Positions 9,924 to 18,089 of a DNA stretch of 64,000 nucleotides are shown here, piece after piece; within the stretch, counting starts at the first letter, position 1, and every line of letters begins with the position of its first letter. The stretch comes from Methylomarinovum tepidoasis. Its GTDB lineage: Bacteria > Pseudomonadota > Gammaproteobacteria > Methylococcales > Methylothermaceae. Position numbers and translations under genes: made by a program. Below the pieces are notes generated by a model. It saw nothing but the letters and a program-made list of their open reading frames with translations, searched no databases and had not been told where the DNA came from. The stretch covers positions 1,751,001-1,815,000 of the forward strand of contig NZ_AP024718.1 of assembly GCF_030294985.1 (NCBI RefSeq), in the 5' to 3' direction.

Positions 9924-11945
9924 ATGTACAGAAAATTCGTTCTTTTGACCCTGTTCTTTCTCGTCGTCACCTTCGCCCTCGGCGTTTACGTGCGTGCCAC
10001 CGGCGCCGGCACCGCCTGCCCCGACGCGCCGGCGTGCTTCGGTCAGTGGTGGCCCCCGGAAGACCTGCCGCCCGAGACATTGCAGCGCTATCCCGGTATC
10101 TTCTACGATGCCGCCGCCGCACGCCTGCACATGCTCCACCGTCTGGCGGCGGGCGCGGCAGGGGTGCTGCTGTTGGGGCTCCTGGTGACCGCAGTGCGCC
10201 ACCCCCGCCGCCGCACCGCCCTGATCGGCAGCTGGAGTCTGGCCTTGTTGTACGGGCTGCAGGCGGGACTGGGCGCGGCCCTGGTGGCCAGCCGCATGAT
10301 GCCGGCGCTGGTCGCCTTCCACTGGTTGACCGGTACGGTGATGATCCTGGTGGCCTTCGGCTGGTATCTGCGCCTCGCTCCGGTATCCTGGGAACGCTAT
10401 ACCCACACCCACGGATTGCGGCGTCTGGCCCTGACCGCCCTGGGCGTCGCCCTGCTCCAAGGCTGGCTCGGGGCCTTGGTGGGGGCCAATTACGCCGATC
10501 TGGTCTGCCCGGATTTCCCCACCTGTCAGGGGCGCTGGTGGCCCGAAAGCCTCGACTGGCACGCCCTGGCCTTCTGGGAACAGTGGCGCTACGGGCTGAG
10601 TGGATGGAGCCTGCCCGATGCCGACGGCCGCATCACCCTGCACTGGCTTCACCGCCTCGGGGCGCTGGTGGGGTTCGTGGTGCTGTTCCTGCTGGGGCTG
10701 TCGATCAGTTCCAATCCCAAGGCGCCCCACCTGAGCAAAGTCGGGGTGCTGCTCAATTTCCTGCTGCTGGTGGTGATCGCCTTCGGCATGTCGGTGGTCA
10801 TCAAGGGCGCGCCGGCCTATCTGGTGGTGGGCCATTCGCTGGCGGCGCTGGCGATTCTGGTCACGGGCTACGGGGTGGCCTTCTTCCTCCGCTACGGTCC
10901 GCCGCTGCCCCGGGCGCGAGCGGCCGAAGCCATCGGAGAAGCACCGCCTCCCGAGGTTCCGGTCCCGCCGCCGGTGGAGGTGCCGCCCGCGCCGGAAACC
11001 CTGTTCGAGCGGCTCAAAAGCGGCCTGGGCAAGACCCGCAAAGGGCTGACCGGTTTCCTCGCTTCCCTGCCCCTGGCCGGACGCGAGCTGGATGAGGAGC
11101 TGCTGGAGGAGATCGAAACCCACCTGCTCATGGCCGACGTCGGCGTGGAAGCCACCGAGGCGATCATCGACCGCCTCAAGGCCTGCCTGTCGCGTCAGCA
11201 GCTCAAGGATCAGGAAACGGTGATGCAGGCCCTCCACGACGTGCTGCTGGAGATCCTCGAACCCTGCAGCCGGCCCCTCAGGATCGATCCCGCCCACAAA
11301 CCCTTCGTGATCCTGGTGGTCGGGGTCAACGGCGTCGGCAAGACCACCACCATCGGCAAGCTGGCCAAGCGCCTACAGCGCCAGGGGCACAGCGTCATGC
11401 TCGCCGCCGGCGACACCTTCCGCGCTGCCGCCGTCGAACAGCTCAAGGTCTGGGGGGAACGCAACCAGGTGCCGGTCGTCGCCCAGCACACCGGCGCCGA
11501 TTCCGCCTCGGTCATCTACGATGCCCTCCAGGCCGCCAAGGCGCGTGGCATCGACGTGCTCATCGCCGACACCGCCGGCCGTCTCCACACCAAGTCCAAT
11601 TTGATGGAGGAGCTGGCCAAGATCAAACGCATCATGGCCAAGCTCGATCCCACCGCCCCCCACGAGGTGCTGCTGGTGCTGGATGCCACCACGGGGCAGA
11701 ACGCCATCTCCCAGGCCGAGCAGTTCAACCAAGCGGTGGGGGTGACCGGCATCGCCCTGACCAAGCTCGACGGCACCGCCAAAGGTGGGGTGATCTTCGC
11801 TCTGGCCAAGCGCTTCGGTATCCCGATCCGCTTCATCGGCATCGGAGAGGGCATCGACGACCTACAGGATTTCGACGCCAGGGCGTTCGTCGACGCCTTG
11901 TTCGCCGAACAGCCCCGGGAGGCGCCGGCTCCGGTCCTGCACTGA
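9924..11945 (+). CDS. Fusion protein: heme A synthase (CtaA/COX15) + signal recognition particle receptor FtsY
   Basis: One uninterrupted 673-codon frame. Residues 1 to about 330 are a complete heme A synthase: eight predicted helices, conserved His in ARLHMLHRL (His69/His72), [15 protein letters not shown] and VGHSLAAL, and Cys pairs CPDAPAC and CPDFPTC. A Pro-rich linker (about 330-362) leads into a full FtsY NG GTPase: N domain from about 363, G1 [10 protein letters not shown] near 467, DTAGR near 549, [10 protein letters not shown] near 612. The acidic A domain of enterobacterial FtsY is missing; the heme A synthase takes its place. No ATG and no SD precede the FtsY part. The next genes are ftsE and ftsX, the usual ftsY partners, while surf1 upstream is the usual ctaA neighbour, so both halves are in their expected places. 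Confidence 0.88.
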
Positions 11946-11949
11946 GGCC

Positions 11950-12615
11950 ATGCTGCGTTTTCAGGGGGTCGGCAAGCGCTATCCGGGCAGCGGCGAGATT
12001 CTGAAAGGACTCGATCTGACGGTCGGACGCGGTGACATGGCCTTCGTCACCGGCCATTCCGGAGCCGGCAAGAGCACGCTTCTCAAGCTGGCGGCCCTCA
12101 TCGAACGGCCCAGCCGCGGCCGCATCTTCCTCAACGACCGCGATCTGACCCGGCTGCCGCCCCGGAGCGTGCCCTACCTGCGCCGCCGCCTCGGGCTGAT
12201 CTTCCAGGACTACCGCCTGCTTTACGACCGCAGCGTGTTCGACAACGTCGCCCTGCCGCTTCAGATCGCCGGATACGCGCCGGAAGAGGTCGAGCGCCGC
12301 ACCCGGGCGGCCCTGGCCAAGGTGGGTCTGGCCGGCTGGGAACGGCGCCGGCCGGTCACCCTCTCCGGGGGCGAACAACAGCGGGTCGGCATCGCCCGGG
12401 CCATCGTCACCCGCCCCCCCTTGATCCTGGCCGACGAGCCGACCGGCAATCTGGACCCGGACCTGTCCCAGGAGATCTTCGCCATGTTCCGCGATTTCAA
12501 CCGGGTCGGGGTGACTTTTCTGATCGCCAGTCACGACCAGGCGCTGGTGGAACGCTTCGCCAGCCGCTGGTTCCACCTCGAGCAGGGCCGTGTCGTCGAA
12601 GTGGGAGGGAGGTGA
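11950..12615 (+). CDS. ftsE: Cell division ATP-binding protein FtsE
   Basis: 221-residue ABC ATPase with Walker [10 protein letters not shown] near residue 35, Q-loop LIFQDYRLL, signature LSGGEQQR near 138, Walker [12 protein letters not shown] and a His switch ASHDQ. Length and sequence fit FtsE, which works with FtsX at the septum to activate peptidoglycan hydrolases. It starts four bases after the ctaA-ftsY stop, so it is translated from the same mRNA. Confidence 0.95.
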
Positions 12616-12619
12616 GGCG

Positions 12620-13540
12620 GTGGCGCTGAAGACTTACCTGCGTCTGCACCGCCAGGCCTTGCTTTCCAGTCTGGAGGACTTGTGGCGGGCGCCGTGGATG
12701 ACGGCGGTCACGATCGGCGTCATCGCGGTTACCCTGGTGCTGCCTTTGAGCTTCCATCTCACCTTGTCCCAGGCGCAGCGTTTGGGTGGCGCTTTCGGTT
12801 CCGGCCGGCAGGTGACGCTGTATCTGCAGCCGGATCTGCCCGCGGAGAAGGCGCAAAGTCTGGCGGCGCGTCTGCGGCAGGAGGCGGCGGTGGCGGAAGT
12901 CCACTTGATCGGCAAGGACGAGGCCCTGGCCCAGTTGCGCGAGGCGGGCGATTTCGCCGCGGCCCTGGACTGGCTGCCCGACAACCCGCTGCCGGCGGTC
13001 ATCGAGGTGACGCCGAAGCCGGCCTGGAGCGAGGAGGCCCGCCTTGCCGGGCTGATCCAGCGCTGGCGCCGGTGGCCCGGCGTCGAGCAGATCCAATGGA
13101 ATCAGTCCTGGTTGCGGCGTTTCCGGGCCTGGCTGACCCTGACCCGGCACGCTGCGCTGGCGCTGGGGGCGGTTCTGTCGTTGGCGGTGGTGCTGGTGGT
13201 GGGCAACACTGTCCGCCTGGAATTGGAAGAACATCATGAAGCGATCGAGGTGATGGGCCTGCTGGGAGCCACTCCCGGTTTCATCCGCCGCCCGTTCCTG
13301 TATTCCGGGTTCTGGCTCGGTTTCCTCGGCGGCGGTGCGGCGCTCGCTGGCGTTTTCCTACTGTATCGGTTGCTGTATCCCTATGTCGTCGAACTGGCGC
13401 GCCTCTACGGCAGCCGCTTCGAGCCGCACTTCTTCTCCTTGGGTGAAATCCTCGGGATCTGGCTGGCCGTGTGCCTGCTGACGACGGCCGCCGCCGCGCT
13501 GGTGGTCAGCCGTCATCTGTGGCGGCTGTTTCGCCGATAA
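12620..13540 (+). CDS. ftsX: Cell division protein FtsX
   Basis: 306 residues from GTG 12620, chosen because a strong SD (GGGAGGGAGGTG, 12603-12613) precedes it; the frame is open for ten more codons inside ftsE. Topology fits FtsX: cytoplasmic N-terminus, helix 1 about residues 27-50, a large periplasmic loop, then three helices in the C-terminal half. NTVRLELEEHHEAIEVMGLLGA is the family segment before helix 3 (quoted in two parts: NTVRLELEEHHEAI and EVMGLLGA). It completes the ftsY-ftsE-ftsX order known from enterobacteria. Confidence 0.93.
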   Translation: MALKTYLRLHRQALLSSLEDLWRAPWMTAVTIGVIAVTLVLPLSFHLTLSQAQRLGGAFGSGRQVTLYLQPDLPAEKAQSLAARLRQEAAVAEVHLIGKDEALAQLREAGDFAAALDWLPDNPLPAVIEVTPKPAWSEEARLAGLIQRWRRWPGVEQIQWNQSWLRRFRAWLTLTRHAALALGAVLSLAVVLVVGNTVRLELEEHHEAIEVMGLLGATPGFIRRPFLYSGFWLGFLGGGAALAGVFLLYRLLYPYVVELARLYGSRFEPHFFSLGEILGIWLAVCLLTTAAAALVVSRHLWRLFRR

Positions 13541-13713: not shown

Positions 13714-14550
13714 ATGGCAGCTACATCTGCTGGTGTCTCCGCACAAGCGGAAGCACCTTTGTTGAATACCCGATGGCTTGCGTTCGCCTTCGCGATCTAC
13801 ACCATCCTGTATTCCTGGGTGGTGTGGTACGAGAGGGTTTACGGGTGGCAAGCCGGCCTGGACTCTTTTGCACCAGAGTTCGAAACTTATTGGATGAACT
13901 TCCTCTACACCGAGATCGTGGTGGAGGTTGTCATCGCCTCTCTGCTGTGGGGCTACCTGTGGCGTACCCGTCCCCGTGATCTGGACAAGATCGCCGGCAC
14001 TCGGGAGGAGCTGCGCCGCAACTTCACCCATCTTGTCTGGCTGTTCGCCTATGCCTACTCCATCTACTGGGGTGCGAGCTTCTTCACCGAACAGGACGGC
14101 ACCTGGCATCAGACCATCGTGCGGGACACCGACTTCACGCCGAGCCATATCATCGAGTTCTATGGTTCGTATCCGGTGTACATCATCACGGGTTTCGGCG
14201 CCTTCATCTATGCCCATACCCGGTTGCCCTACTTTGACTATACGAAGAAGGGGCTGTCGCTGCCGTACCTGATCTCGGTGGTGGGTCCGTTCATGATCGT
14301 TCCCAACGTCGGTCTGAACGAGTGGGGTCATACCTTCTGGTTCATGGAAGAGCTGTTCGTCGCTCCGCTGCACTATGGTTTCGTCTTCTTCGGTTGGTTC
14401 GCTCTGGGAATCCTGGGAGTCTGGCTGCAGACCCTCGCCAGCATTCTGAACCTGATCGGCAAACCGCTGTGCGGCGAGATCTACGACGCGGCTGTCGCCC
14501 GCATCGGAGCTGACCAGGCTCAGTGGGCGGATGACGTCCTGGAGGATTGA
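13714..14550 (+). CDS. pmoC: Particulate methane monooxygenase subunit C (stand-alone copy)
   Basis: 278 residues, full length, closely matching type I methanotroph PmoC in WMNFLYTEIVVE, RRNFTHLVWLFAYA, TPSHIIEFY and VGLNEWGHTFWFMEELF. The metal site is kept: Asp128, His132 and His145 have the spacing of the Methylococcus ligands (D-x3-H-x12-H). PmoC is one of three membrane subunits that oxidise methane to methanol. The strong SD AAGGAGG sits nine bases before the ATG. Neither pmoA nor pmoB is adjacent; the neighbours are ftsX and rpoH, so this is an orphan pmoC. It has its own regulatory region and terminator, suggesting independent expression. Confidence 0.96.
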   Translation: MAATSAGVSAQAEAPLLNTRWLAFAFAIYTILYSWVVWYERVYGWQAGLDSFAPEFETYWMNFLYTEIVVEVVIASLLWGYLWRTRPRDLDKIAGTREELRRNFTHLVWLFAYAYSIYWGASFFTEQDGTWHQTIVRDTDFTPSHIIEFYGSYPVYIITGFGAFIYAHTRLPYFDYTKKGLSLPYLISVVGPFMIVPNVGLNEWGHTFWFMEELFVAPLHYGFVFFGWFALGILGVWLQTLASILNLIGKPLCGEIYDAAVARIGADQAQWADDVLED

Positions 14551-14744: not shown

Positions 14745-14793
14745 AGTGACTTGCGGCTTTGCAACAACAACAAACCAACAGGGGGATAGCAGG

Positions 14794-15657
<864 letters not shown>

Positions 15658-15681: not shown

Positions 15682-15716
15682 CGGGCGTCTCCAAAAACGG
15701 GGGCGCCCGTTTTTTT
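15682..15716 (+). terminator. Intrinsic terminator after rpoH
   Basis: An 11-bp stem including two G-T pairs (15682-15692 with 15699-15709), loop AAAAAC, then seven T residues at 15710-15716. The T-run touches the end of convergent ctaB. Confidence 0.85.
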
Positions 15717-16623
15717 ATGGATGAAAATACCAGTAATGATCCACCAGCAGGGCGGCGAACAGGATCATGAGGTAAACGATGGAGTAGGCGAAGGTCCGCA
15801 TCGCCAGGCGCTTGTCGTCCGGCCGCAGGCGCAGCTGCCAGGCCAGATAGAGGAAGACGGCGTCCAGGATGACGGTGACGCCCAGGTAGATCAGGCCGCT
15901 CATGCGGGTGAGGTAGGGCATCACGCTGATGACGCTGAGGAGGATGGTGTAGAGGAACACCTGCAGGCCGGTGAACTCGACCCCGTGGGTCACCGGCAGC
16001 ATGGGAATGTCCACCTTGGCGTACTCGTCGCGTTTGGCGATGGCCAGGGCCCAGAAGTGGGGCGGGGTCCACAGGAAGATGATGAGGAACAGCAGCACCG
16101 TGTTGGGGTGGATCTGCCCCAGCACCGCGCACGATCCCAGGATCGGCGGCACCGCCCCGGCCGCCCCGCCGATGACGATGTTCTGGGGGGTGGCCCGTTT
16201 CAGATAGACGGTGTAAACGACCGCATAGCCGATCAGCGACAGGAAGGTCAGGATCGCCGTCAGCCAGTTGACCCAGACCACCAGGATGACCATCGAGGCT
16301 AGCCCCAAAACCGAGGCGAACACCAGCACCTTCCAGGGCTCCAGTTCCCCCTGGGGCAGGGGACGGTGGCGGGTGCGGCCCATCTGGGCGTCGGCGTGGC
16401 GGTCGAGATAGTGGTTGAAGGCGGCCGCCGAGGCCGCCGCCAGGGCGATGCCCAGGGAGCCGAAAACGAGCGCCCGCAAAGGCACCATGCCGGGAACCGA
16501 CAGGAACATGCCGACGATGGCGGTGAAGACGATCAGCGCCACCACCCGGGGTTTGCACAGCTCGAAATAGGCGCGCCAGCCGGCGGGGGAGGGGATGGGA
16601 TCGGCAACCGTCTTCGCTTTCAT
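15715..16623 (-). CDS. ctaB: Protoheme IX farnesyltransferase (heme O synthase) CtaB
   Basis: 302 residues from ATG 16623 (a TTG six codons upstream is also open). UbiA-family prenyltransferase with about nine helices. The first Asp-rich motif is [20 protein letters not shown] near residue 73 and the second region is [14 protein letters not shown] near 205. It converts heme B to heme O, the substrate of the heme A synthase domain encoded at 9924. Its separation from the cox operon by ftsEX, pmoC and rpoH is unusual for this pathway. Confidence 0.95.
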
Positions 16624-16700
16624 GGGCACCTGGTAATACAATAGAGCGGAAACGCGTTATTTTATACCAATTTCCTTGGAATTTAGGGGGCGGACACGCG

Positions 16701-18089
16701 ATGATCCGAAGGTTCCTCAGTTTTTTCTGGCTGCTGTGTTGGCTTCCACTGGCCGCCTGCGCCGTCGATCCCAAGGTCCACGAGTACAAGCTCGACAACG
16801 GCCTCAAGGTGGTGGTGAAGGAAGATCACCGCGCGCCGGTGGCGGTCTCCCAGGTGTGGTACAAGGTCGGCTCGAGCTACGAGCACGACGGCATCACCGG
16901 CATCTCCCATATGCTCGAACACATGATGTTCAAAGGAACCGAAAAACACGGGCCGGGTGAATTCTCCCGCATCATCGCCGAGCTGGGCGGACGCGAGAAC
17001 GCCTTCACCGGCACCGATTACACCGCCTATTTCGAAACCCTGGAAAAGTCCCGGCTGCCGGTGGCCTTCGAACTGGAGGCGGACCGCATGCGCCACCTCA
17101 AACTGGACGAAAAGGAATTCGCCAAGGAAAAGCAGGTGGTGCTGGAGGAGCGCCGCATGCGCACCGACGACCAGCCCCGGGCCAAGACCTACGAACACTT
17201 CATGGCCGTCGCCTTCACCAACGGCCCGTACCGGAACCCGGTGATCGGCTGGCCGGCGGACATCGAGGCCTTGACCGTCGCCGACCTGCGCCAGTGGTAC
17301 CGGCAGTGGTACGCCCCCAACAACGCCACCCTGGTGGTGGTCGGAGACGTGGCGCCGGAGCGGATCCTGACGTGGGCGAAAAAGTGGTTCGGCCCGCTCG
17401 AACCCGGTGAGATTCCGCCGCCCAAGCCCCGCACCGAGGTCGAGCAGCGGGGGGAACGCCGCCTGACGGTGAAGGTGCCGGCTAAGCTGCCCTATCTGCT
17501 CATGGGGTACAAGGTGCCGGTATTGGCGAGCCTGCCCGAGGACCGGCAGTGGGAAGCCTACGCTCTTACGGTGCTGGCTGGCGTTCTCGACGGCGGCGAG
17601 AGCGCCCGGCTGGCCACCCGCCTGGTGCGGGGCAGACAGATCGCCGCCGCCGCGGGCGCCGGTTACGACCTCTACGACCGCCTGCCGACGCTGTTCCTGT
17701 TCAACGGCACCCCCGCCCAGGGCCACGACCTGGACGAACTGGAACAGGCCCTGCGCCAGGAGGTCAGGCGGTTGCAGGAAGAACCGGTGTCCGCCGCGGA
17801 GCTGGAACGGGTCAAGACCCAGGTGACCGCCGAAGCCGTCTATGAACGGGATTCCATGTTCTACCAGGCCATGCAGATCGGCCTGCTGGAAACCAACGGG
17901 CTGGGCTGGCGCCGCCTGGACGAGTACGTCGACCGCATTCAGCGGATCACCGCCGCCCAGGTGCAGGAGGTGGCGCGCAAGTATCTGATCGCCGATCATC
18001 TTACCGTCGCCCGGCTGCAGCCGCTGCCGATCAAGGCCGGTCAGCGGCCGCCCGCACCGGCAGGTTTAGGAGGTAATCATGTCCGTTAA
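16701..18089 (+). CDS. M16 family zinc peptidase, catalytic subunit (exported, likely lipoprotein)
   Basis: 462 residues. The N-terminus is a signal peptide with a lipobox-like LAAC, so probable membrane anchoring after Cys. The inverted zinc motif HMLEH is in SHMLEHMMFKGTEKH near residue 73, with the distal Glu expected in the LGGRENAFTGTDYTA region; the second M16 domain follows. Such proteins pair with an inactive homologue to form a heterodimeric periplasmic peptidase resembling the mitochondrial processing peptidase. Its partner is the next gene, overlapping by 11 bases. Confidence 0.92.
   Translation: MIRRFLSFFWLLCWLPLAACAVDPKVHEYKLDNGLKVVVKEDHRAPVAVSQVWYKVGSSYEHDGITGISHMLEHMMFKGTEKHGPGEFSRIIAELGGRENAFTGTDYTAYFETLEKSRLPVAFELEADRMRHLKLDEKEFAKEKQVVLEERRMRTDDQPRAKTYEHFMAVAFTNGPYRNPVIGWPADIEALTVADLRQWYRQWYAPNNATLVVVGDVAPERILTWAKKWFGPLEPGEIPPPKPRTEVEQRGERRLTVKVPAKLPYLLMGYKVPVLASLPEDRQWEAYALTVLAGVLDGGESARLATRLVRGRQIAAAAGAGYDLYDRLPTLFLFNGTPAQGHDLDELEQALRQEVRRLQEEPVSAAELERVKTQVTAEAVYERDSMFYQAMQIGLLETNGLGWRRLDEYVDRIQRITAAQVQEVARKYLIADHLTVARLQPLPIKAGQRPPAPAGLGGNHVR

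Follow-up and report, generated by a model that had tools for sequence, protein, structure and literature searches.

The window analyzed here, a stretch of 64,000 nucleotides from Methylomarinovum tepidoasis, carries on its forward strand a single 673-codon frame (positions 9924 to 11945) that joins a full COX15/CtaA domain, through a proline-rich linker of roughly 35 residues, to a full FtsY NG GTPase. An earlier reading made without database searches (the sequence-only reading) had placed a complete CtaA and a complete FtsY NG domain in this one frame, and both the exact frame and the profile scores bear this out. The COX15-CtaA Pfam model scored 131.5 bits against a cut-off of 29.9 (residues 4 to 313), the SRP54_N and SRP54 models matched residues 386 to 660 well over their cut-offs (264 bits for SRP54), and the NCBIfam ftsY equivalog model (TIGR00064) reached 373.7 bits against a cut-off of 260.7. 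A hydropathy scan of the fused protein resolved eight hydrophobic segments, with the Cys pairs on the long TM1-TM2 and TM5-TM6 loops, and the FtsY half contains all of the GTPase motifs G1, DTAGR, and TKLDG. Structure prediction on a thin alignment (7 rows) gave a pLDDT of 61, was good for the FtsY half only, and was used for secondary structure only; with the predicted model, Foldseek matched E. coli FtsY-NG structures. A phmmer search of the CtaA half against solved structures returned one weak relative, 8aw5.

Alignment to B. subtilis CtaA showed that H72, H133, H243, and H304 of the window protein correspond to H60, H123, H216, and H278, and that both Cys pairs (C32/C38 and C195/C201) are present, as had been noted from the sequence. 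What had gone unnoticed is that His69 occupies the position of the catalytic Glu (B. subtilis E57), such that TM2 reads HxxHR instead of ExxHR; the description of the CtaA half as “complete” holds for the His and Cys residues but not for this Glu. Judged by score and motifs, the protein belongs to the FtsY family while missing its N-terminal targeting region, and the CtaA half falls within the CtaA sequence family but, on the catalytic Glu, outside the heme A synthase class.

A search for SRP54-family genes in the 2.44-Mb genome (99.9% complete, 2 contigs) returned three, namely, the fusion, Ffh, and FlhF, and no second ftsY, which settles the question of an intact copy elsewhere. Because it encodes the only FtsY of the genome, the fusion must carry all SRP-dependent targeting. 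A second, stand-alone ctaA is present far from the fusion (G000:C1:2381810-2382700; L004, L156), near sdh-like genes and with no cox genes beside it within the 13 kb examined.

Table 1. Features of the ctaA-ftsY locus, in window coordinates
Feature	Position	Strand	Remark
surf1 and small conserved gene upstream of ctaA	8585..9909	+	Ancestral cox-operon neighbors
ctaA-ftsY fusion gene, 673 aa	9924..11945	+	The genome's only ftsY
COX15/CtaA domain, Pfam residues 4-313	9933..10862	+	Pfam; eight hydrophobic segments; eight helices in low-confidence AF2 model
N bundle, TM1-4, substrate-heme half	9924..10376	+	Fast-evolving
Cys32/Cys38	Within 9924..10376	+	N bundle; kept
His69	10128-10130	+	N bundle; in place of catalytic Glu
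His72	10137-10139	+	N bundle; kept
His133	10320-10322	+	N bundle; kept
C bundle, TM5-8, heme b cofactor half	10410..10895	+	
Cys195	10506-10508	+	C bundle; invariant in 45/45 fused proteins
Cys201	10524-10526	+	C bundle; invariant in 45/45 fused proteins
His243	10650-10652	+	C bundle; invariant in 45/45 fused proteins
His304	10833-10835	+	C bundle; invariant in 45/45 fused proteins
Pro/Glu-rich linker	10896..11000	+	Predicted disordered; holds junction (inversion breakpoint)
NG+1 amphipathic helix of FtsY	11001..11063	+	Retained from unfused FtsY
FtsY N and G domains	11079..11903	+	Including G1
ftsE-ftsX	11950..13540	+	Inside inverted segment
rpoH	14746..15657	+	Inside inverted segment
cyoE/ctaB (heme O synthase)	15715..16641	-	Far end of inverted segment; directly after ctaA in unfused relatives
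M16 peptidase open frame	16602..18086	+	Likely start near 16692; marks second inversion breakpoint

Distribution of the fusion and its origin by inversion

In the sample of 61 genomes drawn from the order, every one of the 45 members of six families (f1 to f5 and f8) carries the fused frame, at 47 to 95% identity, whereas ctaA and ftsY are separate in the remaining two, f6 and f7. Stop-to-stop frames across the junction span 635 to 878 codons in the 45 extracted fused relatives; in-frame stops flagged in some order-wide matches leave the fusion whole, since each open frame, once extracted, proved to be full-length. This excludes the missed stop or indel at the junction that the sequence-only reading had raised as a concern. 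The search of related methanotroph genomes that it had suggested shows the fusion throughout the six families and, in nearly all fused genomes, a separate ctaA as well. Outside the order, the fusion was found in 0 of 365 sampled gammaproteobacteria; the class-wide draw of 369 genomes that included them gave full-length matches in three members of the fused families only. A wider draw of 251 genomes of the order gave the same picture, with long frames in all of the best 150 or so matches listed. Inspection of 13 genomes with a weak match or none revealed contig-edge pieces, very divergent fusions, and genes missing in drafts, with two exceptions, both MAGs: one (G441, L245) has a frame-broken fusion without the TKLDG motif, and the other (G455, L244) has an unfused ctaA, its ftsY not being found. 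Both are probably binning or assembly faults. While these two doubtful MAGs could be cited in favor of a sequencing or assembly artifact or a chance read-through, such an explanation is refuted by independent genomes, several of them complete, in which the frame is open throughout and the position of the linker conserved. A recent or strain-specific fusion is ruled out by the spread over six families and by a tree with a single origin (see below). AMO/pmoA family genes occur in 50 of the 61 order genomes, in line with an assignment of the order to Methylococcales, the methanotrophs of the Gammaproteobacteria; because members of f6 and f7 carry AMO-family genes as well, the fusion is not put forward here as a marker of methane oxidation per se.

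Gene order in relatives was mapped by tblastn with the window genes. In f6, f7, and the outgroup families (G061, G075, and G079), coxB-coxA-coxC-surf1-hyp-ctaA-cyoE> converges on <rpoH<ftsX<ftsE<ftsY, and where the contig extends that far, a divergent block, M16-M16-rsmD-coaD>, lies after this, upstream of ftsY (the names rsmD and coaD rest on sequence and place); in G061, no hyp was detected. The window and its genus have the order coxB-coxA-coxC-surf1-hyp-(ctaA::ftsY)-ftsE-ftsX-rpoH> <cyoE, followed by M16-M16-rsmD-coaD>. A single inversion of the cyoE-to-ftsY segment explains both breakpoints: the end of ctaA was joined to the start of ftsY because the segment cyoE...rpoH-ftsX-ftsE-ftsY was inverted. 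The junction of two neighbors that the sequence-only reading had recognized (surf1-ctaA and ftsY-ftsE-ftsX) can thus be traced to one event. The cox operon still lies upstream of the fusion in several families, and cyoE and the cox genes were relocated later in f4 and f8. A lone pmoC-like gene, named from its sequence, sits between ftsX and rpoH in the window (13714 to 14550); tblastn found no pmoC at the matching place of a related locus (L152).

An N-terminal amphipathic sequence or A region of FtsY is common in proteobacteria but not universal. In the nearest unfused relatives, FtsY begins with MFGFGKKK, followed by 15 to 35 mostly polar residues and then the NG+1 helix, and unfused CtaA ends about 10 residues or less after TM8. 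The fusion has a complete TM8, has lost MFGFGKKK, and reaches the conserved NG+1 helix through a low-complexity stretch of variable length; eight helices have therefore taken the place of the segment that targets FtsY to the membrane, in agreement with the eight-helix anchor proposed earlier. The accompanying claim that the acidic A domain is absent is correct in comparison with the long acidic type of E. coli, but the A region of the nearest unfused relatives is already short (about 25 to 40 residues).

In a CtaA tree of 115 sequences (a quick search without bootstrap, with SH-aLRT supports), the 45 fused domains form one group (98) with f6 CtaA as its sister (98), the earliest fused branch being G013 of family f5, and group with gammaproteobacterial type 1.1. 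This suggests that the fusion arose once, in the stem of the six families, and has been inherited vertically since. Recruitment by duplication of ctaA was rejected: tree and synteny both identify the fused copy as orthologous to the one ctaA that f6 has, and the stand-alone copy belongs to a different CtaA type.

Fate of the two CtaA bundles

CtaA holds heme b in its C bundle and heme o in its N bundle, and for its activity the catalytic Glu has been proposed and H1/H2 shown to be required (PMC7327177, PMC12808453); natural Glu substitutions have been recorded in other CtaA types (PMC8239418). In B. subtilis numbering, E57 is kept in 12 of the 45 fused proteins (lost in 33), H60 in 32, and H123 in 34. 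All three residues are kept in 10 proteins, at least one of them is lost in the other 35, and 14 have lost one or both of the substrate-heme His residues. The heme b ligands H216 and H278 and both residues of the second Cys pair are present in 45/45. All ten proteins of the window genus have His or Gln at the E57 position. By parsimony, the full triad must have changed no fewer than five times over fused and unfused CtaA, and it was therefore lost several times.

Evolutionary rates follow the same division. The ratio of N bundle to C bundle, from terminal branches summed on one fixed topology, is 0.57 in unfused CtaA, 0.68 in fused proteins with an intact triad, 1.40 where Glu alone is replaced, and 2.02 where His is lost, and the ratio of C bundle to FtsY stays steady at 2.4 to 3.1. 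As the rate classes are set by N-bundle residues, a small share of the effect arises by construction; however, three columns of 160 cannot yield a threefold rate shift, and the class definition has no bearing on how steady the C bundle is. In the His-lost group, only 1 of 39 ancestrally invariant N-bundle columns is still invariant, compared to 7 of 26 in the C bundle, including the two heme ligands and both Cys residues. These patterns suggest that the substrate half is under relaxed constraint and has decayed repeatedly, with the C bundle keeping the constraint of active enzymes even where the substrate half has decayed.

A stand-alone CtaA is found in every fused genome except G013 and G023, the latter 85% complete. 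These proteins form a well-supported group of their own in the CtaA tree (100), perhaps of horizontal origin, and feature a single Cys pair and an Asn where H60 would be, which matches the H60N CtaA of type 1.3/1C (PMC8239418, PMC12808453). This variant is common in type 1C and presumed to be active, and heme A supply in the window organism is most simply assigned to the stand-alone CtaA. One stand-alone protein (G001, L188) lacks H123 in addition to H60, both being replaced by Asn. The CtaA half of the window protein, in turn, most likely serves as an anchor with heme b still bound and not as the main heme A synthase; with four His residues it may bind two hemes, and some residual heme A activity is conceivable, given these residues, both Cys pairs, and the natural Glu substitutions of other CtaA types.

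A probable membrane-anchored SRP receptor

Taken together, we consider it likely that the fusion is a naturally occurring SRP receptor, passed on by vertical descent and anchored covalently in the membrane, whose CtaA part serves as the anchor and probably retains heme b. The protein is the sole FtsY, is linked covalently to CtaA in the gene, has lost the FtsY targeting piece, and preserves the GTPase motifs. From this we infer a product that would stay in one piece, with the GTPase inside the cell, as an always membrane-bound SRP receptor; because both CtaA termini should be cytoplasmic by homology, the NG GTPase would lie on the correct side to face SRP-ribosome complexes. FtsY is mostly membrane bound in vivo, and its N-terminal targeting region is dispensable if the protein is anchored otherwise (PMC2780400); the same account also cites a direct precedent for such anchoring, in which E. 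coli functioned with FtsY derivatives held at the membrane for good by a transmembrane domain (Zelazny 1997, as cited there). A polytopic receptor may depend on its own SRP pathway for insertion, a form of bootstrapping.

In the history that we propose, the inversion in the stem of the six families joined the end of ctaA to the start of ftsY, removing the N-terminal amphipathic targeting sequence and substituting eight transmembrane helices. Initially, the fused CtaA part would also have made the cell's heme A. The presence of a second, stand-alone CtaA, different in type, would then have freed the substrate half from this duty, and this half would have decayed repeatedly, with the heme b half that adjoins FtsY staying under normal constraint.

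It is tempting to speculate that the fused CtaA part, in addition to its role as an anchor, senses through heme b the heme, oxygen, or redox state of the membrane and adjusts the SRP receptor accordingly. Within the CtaA part, only the heme b ligands, the second Cys pair on the periplasmic side, and a few Gly, Pro, Ala, and Arg residues remain invariant, and the constraint on the C bundle outlasts the decay of the substrate half. However, heme b may merely serve the folding of the bundle, and a signal would have to cross a flexible linker. We thus regard as rather improbable both this sensor and the broader idea of a heme-responsive, heme b-binding SRP receptor of gammaproteobacterial methanotrophs that tunes cotranslational insertion and evolved from a decaying heme A synthase.

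Similarly improbable is the active bifunctional device favored by the sequence-only reading, in which heme A synthase would place the SRP-dependent insertion of oxidase subunits beside heme A supply. The retained cox operon of several families and the four His residues and both Cys pairs of the window protein fit this idea, as do the 10 proteins with a full active site. But the inversion suffices to explain the fusion, the window protein has lost the Glu, the fusion persists in the 14 proteins without H60 or H123, nearly all fused genomes have another CtaA, and the rates are those of a substrate half under relaxed constraint; for the window, the proposed coupling is doubtful. It could apply to the minority with an intact active site, most plausibly to the earliest branch: G013 (L021, L127), which gave no pmoA-family match, has a full CtaA active site, and no other CtaA was found in this genome; among living lineages, its CtaA-FtsY is the strongest candidate for a protein active in both roles.

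Alternatively, the fusion might be cut in the linker, or FtsY might also be made from an internal start, yielding ordinary separate CtaA-like and FtsY proteins. The linker is Pro-rich, predicted to be disordered, and flexible, and start-like codons follow an AG-rich motif in some relatives. Yet no candidate start lies at a conserved position, several genomes have none at all in the scanned stretch, and none of the 45 genomes has regained an N-terminal targeting sequence for FtsY, which fits a permanently attached anchor. The internal start that the sequence-only reading had named as a possible objection hence finds candidates in some relatives but no conserved one, and separate products seem improbable. 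We therefore retain the reading of a permanently anchored receptor.

How does this receptor compare with known systems? It resembles typical FtsY (TIGR00064) in its NG GTPase with all motifs, its NG+1 helix, the adjoining ftsE-ftsX, and its single copy, but has an eight-helix CtaA domain in place of the N-terminal amphipathic targeting sequence. A true transmembrane helix occurs in FtsY of some Gram-positive bacteria or archaea (PMC2780400), and S. lividans FtsY has a hydrophobic N terminus (PMC5533587). As in these and in the engineered protein that functions in E. coli, integral segments hold the NG domain at the membrane; however, the known natural cases have a single hydrophobic segment, whereas the anchor described here is polytopic, derives from a heme enzyme, and, unlike the E. 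coli construct, is natural. With CtaA/COX15 of type 1B (1.1) the fused half shares eight helices, four His residues, two Cys pairs, and the cox-operon position, and differs from it by the FtsY fusion and by the loss of the Glu (33/45; His in the window) or of a substrate-heme His (14/45). CtaA is also fused to another protein in CtaA-CtaB, a fusion of heme A synthase and heme O synthase (PMC8239418, PMC9145763), but the partner there is the enzyme that acts just before CtaA in the pathway and not an unrelated targeting GTPase.

We found no description of a CtaA-FtsY protein in the open-access literature, including that on FtsY in methanotrophs and Methylococcus, and this real, conserved, and mechanistically interpretable fusion is apparently undescribed. 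Since membrane-anchored SRP receptors are already known, what is new is the unusual anchor and its clear evolutionary history, an ordered course of inversion, fusion, presence of a second enzyme, active-site decay, and retention of the heme b half. The fusion parallels in nature the 1997 experiment in which the FtsY NG domain was fused to an unrelated membrane protein, and is a case in which an essential gene has taken over a metabolic enzyme for use as its anchor. A whole lineage whose SRP receptor is apparently unable to leave the membrane also bears on the debate about the need for a soluble FtsY stage. On the practical side, annotating the gene as ftsY alone or ctaA alone will misjudge heme A synthesis in methanotrophs.

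The history of the fused protein raises the question of what role bound heme b would play in a CtaA that has probably ceased to produce heme A. Outside the order, three outgroup gammaproteobacteria (G162, L217; G142, L219; G074, L221) have, beside another CtaA, a second one in which the Glu and H123 are replaced and both heme b ligands kept, a parallel case of a decayed substrate half and a retained heme b half.
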